From positions 1,457,309-1,521,308 of the forward strand of contig NZ_FOIK01000001.1 in assembly GCF_900111565.1 (NCBI RefSeq): 64,000 nt of DNA, given 5' to 3'. Positions within the stretch are counted from its first letter, which is position 1. Each line of letters starts with the position of its first letter. Origin of the DNA: Paenibacillus sp. NFR01 (GTDB lineage Bacteria > Bacillota > Bacilli > Paenibacillales > Paenibacillaceae). Both the position numbers and the translations under genes were made by a program. Shown here piece after piece: positions 11,927 through 14,330 of the stretch. The notes under the pieces are model-generated. The model was not told where the DNA came from. It did no database searches and saw nothing but the letters and a program-made list of their open reading frames with translations.

Positions 11927-11990
11927 CCCCGTAAAGTACCTGAATCGGCTGCGAAGCTGCTCTCTCTCTTCACTTTGCGGGGATTTTTTT
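11927..11990 (+). terminator. plus-strand terminator-like hairpin without an obvious gene
   Basis: CCCCGTAAAGT (11927) pairs with ACTTTGCGGGG (11972) and is followed by ATTTTTTT. It points rightwards into the 3' end of rsgA, yet the nearest plus-strand gene, azoR, already has a strong terminator 75 bases upstream. Confidence 0.5.
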
Positions 11991-13077
11991 AGTATTCGTC
12001 CAGCTCGCGGTGCCAGCCGGACGCGCGCGGCTTGGCCGCGACGCTTCTGGAAGCGGCTGCCGCCTTGCGCTTCTGTTTCGCTTCTTTGCTGTTCTGGTAG
12101 CGCAGCTCCTTCTGTGTTTTGCGGTAGTTGAGCAGCCGCTTTTCTTCCAGTTCGCCATTCCTCACGGCGGCCAGTACGGCACAGCCTTCCTCCTGCTCAT
12201 GCCGGCAGTCGGCGAACCGGCACTCGGCGGCCAGGCTGCCGATGTCGCGGAAGGTCAGCTCCAGGCCGCTGTCATCGTCCCAGAGCTGGAGCTCCCGCAT
12301 TCCCGGGGTATCGATGACGATTCCCCCTTCCGGCAGCGCAAACAGCTCCCGGTGCGTGGTGGTATGCCGGCCCCGGCTGTCGTCCTCGCGCACCTCCTGC
12401 GTCAGCTGCAGCTGTTCCCCGCTCAGCCAGTTGACCATCGTCGATTTACCGCAGCCCGACGATCCCGTCAGGGCTACCGTCTTGCCGTGGCCGATGTACG
12501 GCAGCAGCTGCTCCCGGCCTTCGCCCCTCAGCGCGCTGACCGCAAACACCGGAACGCCAGGCGCGGCCTGCTCCATCTCGGCGATTTTTTGCGGTGCGTC
12601 CTGGCATAAATCCGCTTTGGTCAGCAGGATGACCGGGTTCGCGCCGCTGTTCCACGCCATGATCAGATAACGTTCCATCCGGCGCACGTTAAAGTCGCCG
12701 TTCAAGGCGCAGACCAGGAACAACGTGTCCACATTGGCGGACACGATCTGCTCTTCCTGGGTTTTTCCCGCCACTTTGCGGGAAATCACGCTGCGGCGCG
12801 GCAGCACGCCATGGATCATGCCATGTTCGCCGCCGTCCTGCATCGACAGCTGTACCCAGTCGCCGATGGCCGGGTACTCACCGGAATCCGCGAGCGAGTG
12901 CCGCAGTTTCCCGGCCAGCTCGCCCCAAGCCTCTCCTTCCGCGGTCATCACGCGGTATTTGCTGCCGAAGTCGCCGACGATGCGGCCCGGCGTCCGTTCC
13001 TTTTCCTTGCCGGCGGCCTGCGCCGCCTGCCATTTCATGGCCCAATGTTCATTCCAGCCGTATTGTTCGAGATTCAT
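11989..13077 (-). CDS. rsgA: ribosome small subunit-dependent GTPase A
   Basis: 362 residues with the circularly permuted GTPase order of RsgA/YloQ: an N-terminal OB-fold (about 30-110), G4 TKAD at 153-156, G1 GSSGCGKS at 205-212, switch region HTTTHREL, G3 DTPG at 256-259, and a C-terminal zinc finger (Cys286, Cys291, His293, Cys299). It checks 30S subunit maturation. A basic C-terminal tail (KQKRKAAAASRSVAAKPRASG) may bind rRNA. The ATG follows TTTGGAGGAAAC. It lies outside the usual prpC-prkC-rsgA cluster, so it may be a second copy in this genome. Confidence 0.93.
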   Translation of the reverse strand: MNLEQYGWNEHWAMKWQAAQAAGKEKERTPGRIVGDFGSKYRVMTAEGEAWGELAGKLRHSLADSGEYPAIGDWVQLSMQDGGEHGMIHGVLPRRSVISRKVAGKTQEEQIVSANVDTLFLVCALNGDFNVRRMERYLIMAWNSGANPVILLTKADLCQDAPQKIAEMEQAAPGVPVFAVSALRGEGREQLLPYIGHGKTVALTGSSGCGKSTMVNWLSGEQLQLTQEVREDDSRGRHTTTHRELFALPEGGIVIDTPGMRELQLWDDDSGLELTFRDIGSLAAECRFADCRHEQEEGCAVLAAVRNGELEEKRLLNYRKTQKELRYQNSKEAKQKRKAAAASRSVAAKPRASGWHRELDEY

Positions 13078-13163
13078 TTGTTTCCTCCAAAGTTTGTTTT
13101 TATCGTTGATAAGCCTTCATCTTGATTTTTCAGCCTTTTCCCTTCGCAGCTTTCGAAAACAGC

Positions 13164-13194
13164 AAAAAACCGCCGGGAACCTTTGTCCCGGCGG
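13164..13194 (-). terminator. terminator upstream of rsgA
   Basis: CCGCCGGGA pairs with TCCCGGCGG (9 bp) and is followed on the minus strand by six T residues. It is the second of two terminators between the 26-codon gene and rsgA. Confidence 0.82.
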
Positions 13195-13251
13195 CTGGAA
13201 AGATGCGCGAAAATATACCGGGGCATCCATCCCCAGCCTGAAAAATCGCGC

Positions 13252-13288
13252 AAAAAAGCCGCCGGAACACGATACGGTTCCAGGCGGC
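13252..13288 (-). terminator. terminator of the 26-codon peptide gene
   Basis: GCCGCCTGGAAC pairs with GTTCCGGCGGC (one bulge) and is followed on the minus strand by six T residues, 52 bases after the peptide stop codon. Confidence 0.85.
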
Positions 13289-13339
13289 TGATAGTAGGCA
13301 AATAAAAACTACCCGCTAATACTGCAATGCTTGACTAAT

Positions 13340-13420
13340 CTAGCATGCAGCAGCTGTTTCCGGAAGACGCGTATCGACAACCATTACAATTGCAGCAAAA
13401 ACAGAGCTATGGACTGTCAT
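13340..13420 (-). CDS. 26-residue peptide gene
   Basis: An ATG at 13420 follows AAAGGAGACGAGG and opens a 26-codon frame ending in TAG at 13340. The peptide begins MTVHSSVFAAIVMVV and ends DTRLPETAAAC, so it has a hydrophobic amphipathic N-terminal half and a single C-terminal cysteine. A consensus-like promoter (TTGACA, 18 bases, TATGAT) lies about 90 bases upstream and a strong terminator 52 bases downstream, giving a predicted transcript of about 250 bases. I recognise no family. It could be a signalling peptide, a small membrane-associated peptide or a leader for rsgA. Confidence 0.6.
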   Translation of the reverse strand: MTVHSSVFAAIVMVVDTRLPETAAAC

Positions 13421-13506
13421 AATTACCTCGTCTCCTTTCGGAAATACAGAATTGGGTGTCATACGAAATTTTCTTGAAATACCAGGAAAATCATATAACC
13501 GATATC

Positions 13507-13536
13507 ATCATAAAGGGCTTCGCAGCCATCTGTCAA
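13507..13536 (-). promoter_or_regulatory. sigma-A promoter of the 26-codon peptide gene
   Basis: On the minus strand TTGACA (13536-13531), an 18-base spacer and TATGAT (13512-13507). It lies between the HAD gene stop and the peptide gene. Confidence 0.68.
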
Positions 13537-13559
13537 CCCCGCGGCCGAAAAAATATAAC

Positions 13560-14231
13560 CTAGATCAAACCCGTCAGCTCATCTAACTCACGGATCGTCT
13601 TCCAGGGCGTTACATCCAGCTTGGGGTCCCAGGCATGGTTCCGCTTCAGCCATATCGTTTGCATTCCCGCTTTCGCCGCGCCCCAAATGTCGTTTACGGG
13701 ATGATCCCCGATAAACAGCGTTTCCGTTGCCGCAGCGCCGAGCCGTTCCAGCGCAAGGCGGTAAATATCCGGATCGGGCTTGCTGATGCCGACCTCACCC
13801 GAGATGACAATGTCCGTAAAATACGGACGAATGCCGAGCAGGTCGATTTTTCGATATTGAAGCTCCGTCTTGCCGTTCGTAACAAGGCCCATCGTGTAGC
13901 CGCGTCCTCGGCAATAGTCGAGAATCTCCTTGGCGTGCCGCATCGGCGCACCATGGCCGAAATAATTCAAGTCATAATAAGCCCTGATCTGGGCTGCGCT
14001 TACTGGCTCGTTCCAAGGCAGCACCTCGCTCAGCTCGGCAAAATAACCGTCTTTGTCCCGGTAGCCGTCCGCGTCGCGCACGATCATCTCTTCCAGAGCT
14101 TGCTCAGCCGCTTCCTGCGGCAAATGGCTCAATAACTCTTTTACAAATTGGCTGGCAAAGCTGCGGAACGTCGCATCCCGGTCCATCAGCGTATTGTCCA
14201 GGTCAAACAACAGACAACGTGTTTCATTCAT
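13560..14231 (-). CDS. HAD-superfamily hydrolase (YjjG/YfnB-like)
   Basis: 223 residues from the ATG at 14231, which has AAGGAG 9 bases upstream; an in-frame ATG at 14252 includes that site and is unlikely. HAD motif I is FDLDNTLMDRD (nucleophile Asp10, acid Asp12), motif II VTNG, motif III lysine in GISKPDPDIY, motif IV IGDHPVNDI. The helical cap lies between residues 20 and 90. This pattern is typical of YjjG-type nucleotidases and other small phosphomonoesterases; the substrate is not deducible. Monocistronic. Confidence 0.88.
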   Translation of the reverse strand: MNETRCLLFDLDNTLMDRDATFRSFASQFVKELLSHLPQEAAEQALEEMIVRDADGYRDKDGYFAELSEVLPWNEPVSAAQIRAYYDLNYFGHGAPMRHAKEILDYCRGRGYTMGLVTNGKTELQYRKIDLLGIRPYFTDIVISGEVGISKPDPDIYRLALERLGAAATETLFIGDHPVNDIWGAAKAGMQTIWLKRNHAWDPKLDVTPWKTIRELDELTGLI

Positions 14232-14330
14232 TGCAGGCCTCTCCTTGTACATTCGGGTCCATTGACCGCAAAATCAATTAAACCCCATTGTACTATGCGC
14301 GGCCCGTGAAAAGGAAGACCTCTTGGTTGC

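Follow-up and report, generated by a model that had tools for sequence, protein, structure and literature searches.

Relation to known leader-controlled genes

The leader-peptide attenuators described so far mostly control resistance genes and biosynthetic operons, and ErmC is among those of the erm type. For leader 1 of ErmA, a published account gives IAVV as the stall motif (PMC12698558). The rli80 leader of Listeria monocytogenes hflXr (lmo0762) is reported as a ribosome-dependent attenuator of a second HflX, shown by mutation (PMC6310831). The element analysed here lies in the window, i.e., the whole 64,000-nucleotide stretch of Paenibacillus sp. NFR01 DNA that was studied, and it is likely to be the 5' leader of an RsgA paralogue and to act as a ribosome-mediated transcription attenuator.

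The two systems are alike in that a duplicated ribosome-associated GTPase gene follows a short leader frame with a terminator and an antiterminator, and in possessing another copy of the gene, which in Listeria is uninvolved in resistance (PMC6310831). They differ in that rli80 serves the HflX family (ribosome splitting) and has a 14-codon frame with an RLR stall motif (PMC6310831), whereas the gene here is of the RsgA family, the antiterminator strand is part of the frame itself and can also pair with the Shine-Dalgarno sequence (SD), and two tandem terminators are usually found. RLR is absent from the window peptide and none was seen in the surveyed leader peptides, which places the present leader outside the RLR class. 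With the erm-type attenuators it shares mutually exclusive pairings that are set by a ribosome stall on the first codons of a short frame, the stall being predicted here; an I/V-rich stretch before the switch strand also recalls the IAVV of the ErmA leader, and we regard this as a lead (PMC12698558). It differs from the erm-type systems in serving an RsgA paralogue and in its recurrent motif (SIV, or VVD in the group of the window), and stalling is putative here.

Rfam gave no match at gathering score in 13 loci and only sub-threshold matches in the window (best E 0.29), and no attenuator of RsgA was found in full-text searches of open-access literature. In the main text of a structured-RNA survey of 26 genomes, a term search found neither rsgA nor Paenibacillus (PMC8632094).

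The leader unit and the RsgA paralogue behind it

The unit is encoded on the minus strand (Table 1). The earlier note, made from the letters of this DNA, had listed a promoter, an AAAGGAG site, a 26-codon frame, a terminator and a second terminator ahead of rsgA, and each of these features is present; TTGACA also precedes the leader in relatives. A pattern scan of positions 12800-13900 returned the leader promoter as the sole promoter-like site, a number expected by chance (1 versus 0.9 in shuffles), and five terminator-like sites versus 1.5 expected.

Table 1. Features of the leader unit and its neighbours in the window.
Feature	Position	Strand	Evidence
Sigma-A-type promoter of the leader, TTGACA-18-TATGAT	13507..13536	-	11/12 consensus match
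SD of the leader frame, AAAGGAG, inside the 5' arm of hairpin 1	13432..13438	-	Sequence; pairing of SD with 3' part of frame in folds
26-codon leader frame MTVHSSVFAAIVMVVDTRLPETAAAC	13340..13420 including stop (codons 13420-13343, stop 13342-13340)	-	ORF translation, relatives
Motif M GATACGCGTCTTCCGG within the leader frame; alternative partners SD region or 5' arm/loop of terminator 1	13360..13375	-	Folds, alignments
Hairpin 1, which takes in the SD, the start codon and the greater part of the frame	13354..13449	-	Fold; similar hairpin in folded relatives
Hairpin 2, enclosing the stop codon	13320..13352	-	Fold
Terminator 1, hairpin and T-run, presumed attenuator	about 13257..13289	-	Terminator pattern, fold
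Terminator 2, second hairpin and T-run 5' of the gene	13168..13196	-	Terminator pattern
Divergent RsgA paralogue, 362 aa, presumed regulated gene	11989..13077	-	ORF; TIGR00157
Upstream neighbour, HAD hydrolase gene	13560-14252

The leader RNA, taken from 13460 to 13255, folds with a free energy of -72.3 kcal/mol versus -53.4 kcal/mol for shuffled sequences (z = -4.53), and none of 200 shuffles was as good. Along the RNA the fold consists of hairpin 1, hairpin 2 with the stop codon, a third small hairpin and terminator 1. In relatives, both arms of hairpin 2 have changed yet retain pairing, as judged by eye. Terminator 1 is among the most conserved stretches of the unit in the genus comparison, and by pattern it is an intrinsic terminator between leader frame and gene, as is typical of ribosome-mediated transcription attenuators. 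A terminator pattern search of the curated units found the second hairpin for most of them. Terminator 2 often duplicates much of the terminator 1 stem (in the group of the window, GCCGCCGGAAC...GTTCCGGCGGC), so that M could act on both terminators.

The gene behind the leader encodes a protein that scores 160.1 bits against TIGR00157, above the family cut-off of 100, while a canonical rsgA copy elsewhere in the same genome scores 254 bits. The two share 32% identity over query residues 59-326. The sequence of the paralogue presumably carries the GTPase motifs in permuted order together with C-x4-C-x-H-x5-C. The product resembles RsgA/YjeQ/YloQ (CpgA) in exceeding the TIGR00157 cut-off and in the permuted order of its GTPase motifs, and is unlike them in being a divergent second copy with a leader. 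Judging by its spacing to the preceding frame, canonical rsgA appears to have no such leader: at all 12 loci inspected, the match either overlaps the long frame in front of it or begins no more than about 150 nt beyond that frame, and the canonical rsgA of the same genome sits close behind its upstream gene. One RsgA-like match elsewhere (G008:C18:119151-119900) contains a single TAA, which may reflect a disrupted paralogue or a sequencing error.

Conservation within Paenibacillus

Homologous DNA of the unit was detected by blastn in 23 of 60 genomes, its own included, all belonging to the same genus; the 23 genomes of other genera among the 60 gave no match. In an alignment of 32 units, the SD, the start codon, the stretch GATACG..TCTTCCGG and the terminator are nearly invariant, and the peptide of the relatives reads, with some variation, M-T-V-Y-T...V-V-D-T-C-L-P-G-T-A-A-A. 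The copy in the window deviates from this pattern. Its peptide has DTRLPE versus DTCLPG in nearly all aligned units (R for C, E for G), and none of the 31 remaining units shares its C-terminal Cys. In a comparison of 31 units, TTGACA lies 191-202 nt before the terminator loop in all 30 non-window units and 260 nt before the loop of terminator 1 in the window, i.e., about 60 extra bases. With these extra bases and the changes at nearly constant motif positions, the window unit appears to be a diverging copy.

The family search listed 43 genomes of the same genus, and a model built from the 32 units matches 36 of them; named carriers include P. jilunlii, P. typhae and P. rhizophilus. In two genomes (G101 and G116), the RNA model also matches weakly a second stretch just downstream. 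Scanning genome contigs with exact 18-mers gave 25 stretches, 22 of which are units adjoining rsgA, in records titled Paenibacillus apart from one titled Bacillus sp.; the other three (Labrenzia, Streptomyces and P. sacheonensis) are without rsgA and look like chance matches. RNAalifold alone missed most of the structure and showed no double-sided changes, and double-sided covariation of hairpin 1 is absent within the genus.

As for the frame itself, the length from start to motif is 45 or 36 nt in all 34 distinct genus sequences. Synonymous changes exceed expectation in the frame (0.446 versus 0.301) and also in frame +2 (0.332 versus 0.167), and the substitution evidence for coding is therefore ambiguous.

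Leaders before the paralogue in other genera

Outside the genus, the model gave nine weak matches (E 0.0007-0.009 per genome). Six lie upstream of the same RsgA-like gene, a few hundred bases 5' of it and with differing upstream neighbours; the remaining three (L076, L077 and L080) are not near rsgA and were discarded. In the survey of the paralogue, a match was found in 126 of 148 family genomes. From these and the weak-match loci, 61 out-of-genus loci were picked for genus spread, 59 of them with a locatable start; regions were selected, and the unit list curated, by the analyst. A leader unit was accepted by hand in 47 of the 59 regions, and 12 had no convincing leader-terminator pair (five in g22, three in g24, and one each in g21, g25, g26 and g35). 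The peptides differ among genera, e.g., MVNFTSIVSITEIAYASVSVES, MMNLSIVCAVHVSRPIRNAF and MVKVLEVRVNTVSLAGK, and the element stays with the RsgA-like gene while the upstream neighbour and the peptide change.

A strict mechanical search, requiring an SD, an ATG and a frame of 10-40 codons, detected a leader ahead of the paralogue in 52/79 regions (39/59 family, 13/20 class), compared with 5.0 expected in mononucleotide shuffles and 1 on reverse strands. It found none in the five g22 regions, and none in the five g23 regions because its SD list misses the SDs of g23. At class level, a match was obtained for 87 of 200 Bacilli genomes, including 17 from the same family, and some of the matches may represent another RsgA paralogue; from the 70 out-of-family genomes with a match, 20 regions were chosen, and a candidate leader was seen by eye in up to 18, with L224 doubtful and the strict count the safer one. 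A DNA pattern of SD...CGGTCTC, run over 119 genomes of the order, gave two matches, one an already known leader and one without an RsgA gene in the locus.

Among genus genomes that had no blastn match to the window unit, all five that were fetched show, by eye, another short frame at this place, in one case of only 10 codons. A 10-codon leader, MATTYMVVWS, precedes an RsgA paralogue at L197 (G004), L201 (G007) and L202 (G003); in G007 and G003 this paralogue is an additional copy besides one with a window-type leader. These three leaders were dropped from the tests as too short.

Promoter-like sites with at least 10 of 12 matches occur within 130 nt 5' of the leader in 37 of 45 out-of-genus units and between terminator 1 and the paralogue in none of the 45, the searched stretches averaging 120 nt before the leader versus 230 nt from terminator 1 to the gene.

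A motif with two alternative partners

Across genera, the 3' motif of the frame is often CGGUCUC-nn-CGG, and it is complementary either to the leader SD (GAGGCUGAU:AUCGGUCUC) or to the 5' arm of terminator 1 (GAGACCG). For 37 representatives folded under a wide ribosome mask, we compared these pairings with those obtained after dinucleotide shuffling of the ORF end, and SD pairing reached p<=0.05 in 21 of them and terminator 1 (T1) pairing in 9. Fisher's method, applied to 10 groups with only the first unit of each, gave p values of 1.4e-4 (SD) and 6e-4 (T1); the pooled values (6e-15 and 1e-10) should not be taken at face value because the representatives were hand-chosen and the units within groups are related. 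In the window's own copy, SD pairing is clear, with 12.0 pairs versus 1.6 in shuffles (p=0.016), and the wide mask gives a weak antiterminator (6.6 versus 2.7 shuffled, p=0.16). A separate pairing test, in which terminator 2 was used for units whose terminator 1 was missed by the finder, reached p<=0.05 for SD in 58 of 83 units and for T1 in 36 of 81; SD pairing was not significant there in 4/6 g33, 3/3 g21 and 5/6 g24 units.

The partners covary between groups. When partners were swapped, the motif paired better with its own SD in 9 of 10 groups (one-sided p 0.003) and with its own T1 arm in 8 of 10 (p 0.005), and swapping the ORF between groups gave p 0.014 (SD) and 0.001 (T1).

The motif core, found by pattern in 74 of 86 units (12 being without a core), is read in phase 0 in g18, g21, g23, g34 and most of g29, in phase 2 in g20 and most of g33, and in phase 1 in g1, the window-type group, where some rows are mis-anchored (e.g., L018); only the pattern by group was used from this comparison. 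The shifts are clearest within g29 and within g33, in each of which near-identical motif text occurs in two frames, which argues that the motif is kept as RNA rather than as peptide. At the peptide level, Ser-Ile-Val occurs in the peptide frame of 23 of 63 distinct peptides outside g1 versus 1.5 in shuffles, a count drawn from related and not independent peptides.

Ribosome position and the predicted switch

The RNA of 80 units, ending at the loop of the terminator, was folded with a ribosome of 30-nt footprint placed on chosen codons, and the antiterminator was scored as at least 8 expected pairs between the 3' part of the ORF and T1, with pairing across the ribosome either barred or allowed. 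In free RNA, SD:ORF pairing exceeds ORF:T1 pairing in 65 of the 80; the other 15 favour ORF:T1, so a ribosome-free off state is not predicted for them. Expected ORF:T1 pairs reach 8 in 20 units when no ribosome is present.

With pairing across the ribosome barred, the antiterminator forms in 68, 78, 79, 74, 60, 50, 18 and 6 of the 80 units for a ribosome at codons 1, 4, 6, 8, 10, 12, 14 and 16, respectively; with such pairing allowed, the corresponding counts are 66, 57, 42, 26, 33, 28, 11 and 3. The predicted switch thus flips at about codons 12-14. When the ribosome is on the last codon and pairing is allowed, 4 units form the antiterminator and SD:ORF pairing is back to 11.0 on average; the barred value at this codon is zero by construction and was not used. 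The window copy gives 10.3 pairs at codon 4 and 0.1 at codon 8 with pairing allowed, and 11.9-13.2 pairs at codons 1-10 with pairing barred.

An initial model with wider masks yielded the antiterminator early in 78 of 80 units and fewer than 2 pairs at the stop in 77, but its masks (48 nt early, 54 nt at the stop) exceed what a ribosome covers and so favour the switch, and the 30-nt values supersede it. The terminator finder missed terminator 1 in the window, L028, L030, L031, L032, L152 and L159; the g1 units among these were rescued by pattern before the wide-mask folding, and L159 was left out. L152, whose first hairpin was missed, is without an antiterminator in that folding. Taken from folding and covariation, the antiterminator would exclude the terminator and its strand would be exposed according to ribosome position; for stalls at codons 6-8 this relies on barred pairing, and in the window copy the antiterminator is weak versus shuffles.

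Proposed mechanism and alternative readings

The attenuator reading draws on the computed conservation, the tie to the paralogue, the three-way complementarity, the covariation and the lack of a second promoter; termination in vivo and translation of the leader are presumed. In the proposed mechanism, RNA polymerase would initiate at the leader promoter. If no ribosome loads, M would pair with the leader's own SD, terminator 1 and then terminator 2 would form, and the gene would be off. A ribosome that runs on would cover M in passage and, at the stop codon, would leave M covered or re-paired with the SD, so that the terminator would again form. A ribosome held on early codons, by contrast, would keep SD and M apart; the free M would pair with the emerging 5' arm and loop of terminator 1, and the polymerase would read into the RsgA paralogue. 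The signal is probably slowed or drug-arrested elongation, and the paralogue may help ribosomes recover under stress.

The same leader could respond to another signal, namely initiation or the supply of 30S subunits (or the activity of the RsgA paralogue), sensed through the dwell of a ribosome on the SD; the gene would then be under feedback from small-subunit assembly and would not be induced by drug-stalled elongation. We consider this rather unlikely. The SD is itself one of the switch partners, the product is a homologue of a small-subunit assembly GTPase, and a pause at codon 1 yields the antiterminator in 66/80 units even when pairing across the ribosome is allowed. An empty SD, however, gives SD:M pairing in 65/80 units, so that a plain lack of initiation would lower expression, and the Ser-Ile-Val that recurs in many peptides points to a role of elongation.

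The earlier note had described an independent transcription unit for a 26-residue peptide ending in cysteine, and had suggested that it serves in signalling, acts on membranes or is a regulatory leader. Independence is not supported, given that the element stays with the RsgA paralogue and that the promoter search between terminator 1 and the gene was empty, and neither is an ending in cysteine as a mark of the peptide, the terminal Cys being private to the window among the aligned units; of the suggested roles, the regulatory leader is the one that the data favour. A small protein gene whose peptide is itself the product would account for the good SD and ATG, for MTVYT...DTCLPGTAAA being kept within part of the genus and for start-to-motif lengths that differ by only 9 nt, and in that respect the frame is conserved relative to its flanks; much of the conservation is nevertheless at the RNA level, and the substitution test is ambiguous. 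A peptide product is very unlikely: at this place, other genera and further members of the same genus have unrelated peptides, and the frame in which the conserved RNA motif is read varies. SpoVM, which also has 26 residues, was rejected as an identity, since neither sequence nor neighbourhood fits. It is likewise very improbable that the unit is a trans-acting or dual-function small RNA that stops at terminator 1 and uses M as an anti-SD seed on other messages: in relatives, a promoter and terminator of its own would indeed delimit a discrete RNA of about 190 nt, and M is complementary to an SD, but the element lies beside one gene across families and the ORF end covaries with the SD and the terminator of its unit. 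No Rfam match links it to known sRNA families.

Possible extension to other Bacilli

An attenuator that guards a duplicated small-subunit assembly GTPase, and that recurs across Bacilli, would show that cells can couple the assembly or rescue of small subunits directly to how their ribosomes are faring; a widespread paralogue that has so far carried only the RsgA family name would gain a suggested function in ribosome stress. A broader proposal, which we offer tentatively and hold to be possible rather than probable, is that across Bacilli the leader-controlled second RsgA forms a translation-stress response, induced by stalling drugs through transcription attenuation in Paenibacillaceae and in part through SD-sequestering translational attenuation elsewhere; the paralogue would then be what HflXr is, but for the small subunit, and would protect or rebuild ribosomes.

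Translational attenuation was assessed at eight non-Paenibacillaceae loci; it was not seen in six and is predicted only for L207 and L216, which belong to other Bacilli families. At these two loci, no terminator is evident, and the leader frame contains a GGAAUCCUCC-like sequence that is complementary both to the leader SD and to the SD of the paralogue, in an ermC-like layout.
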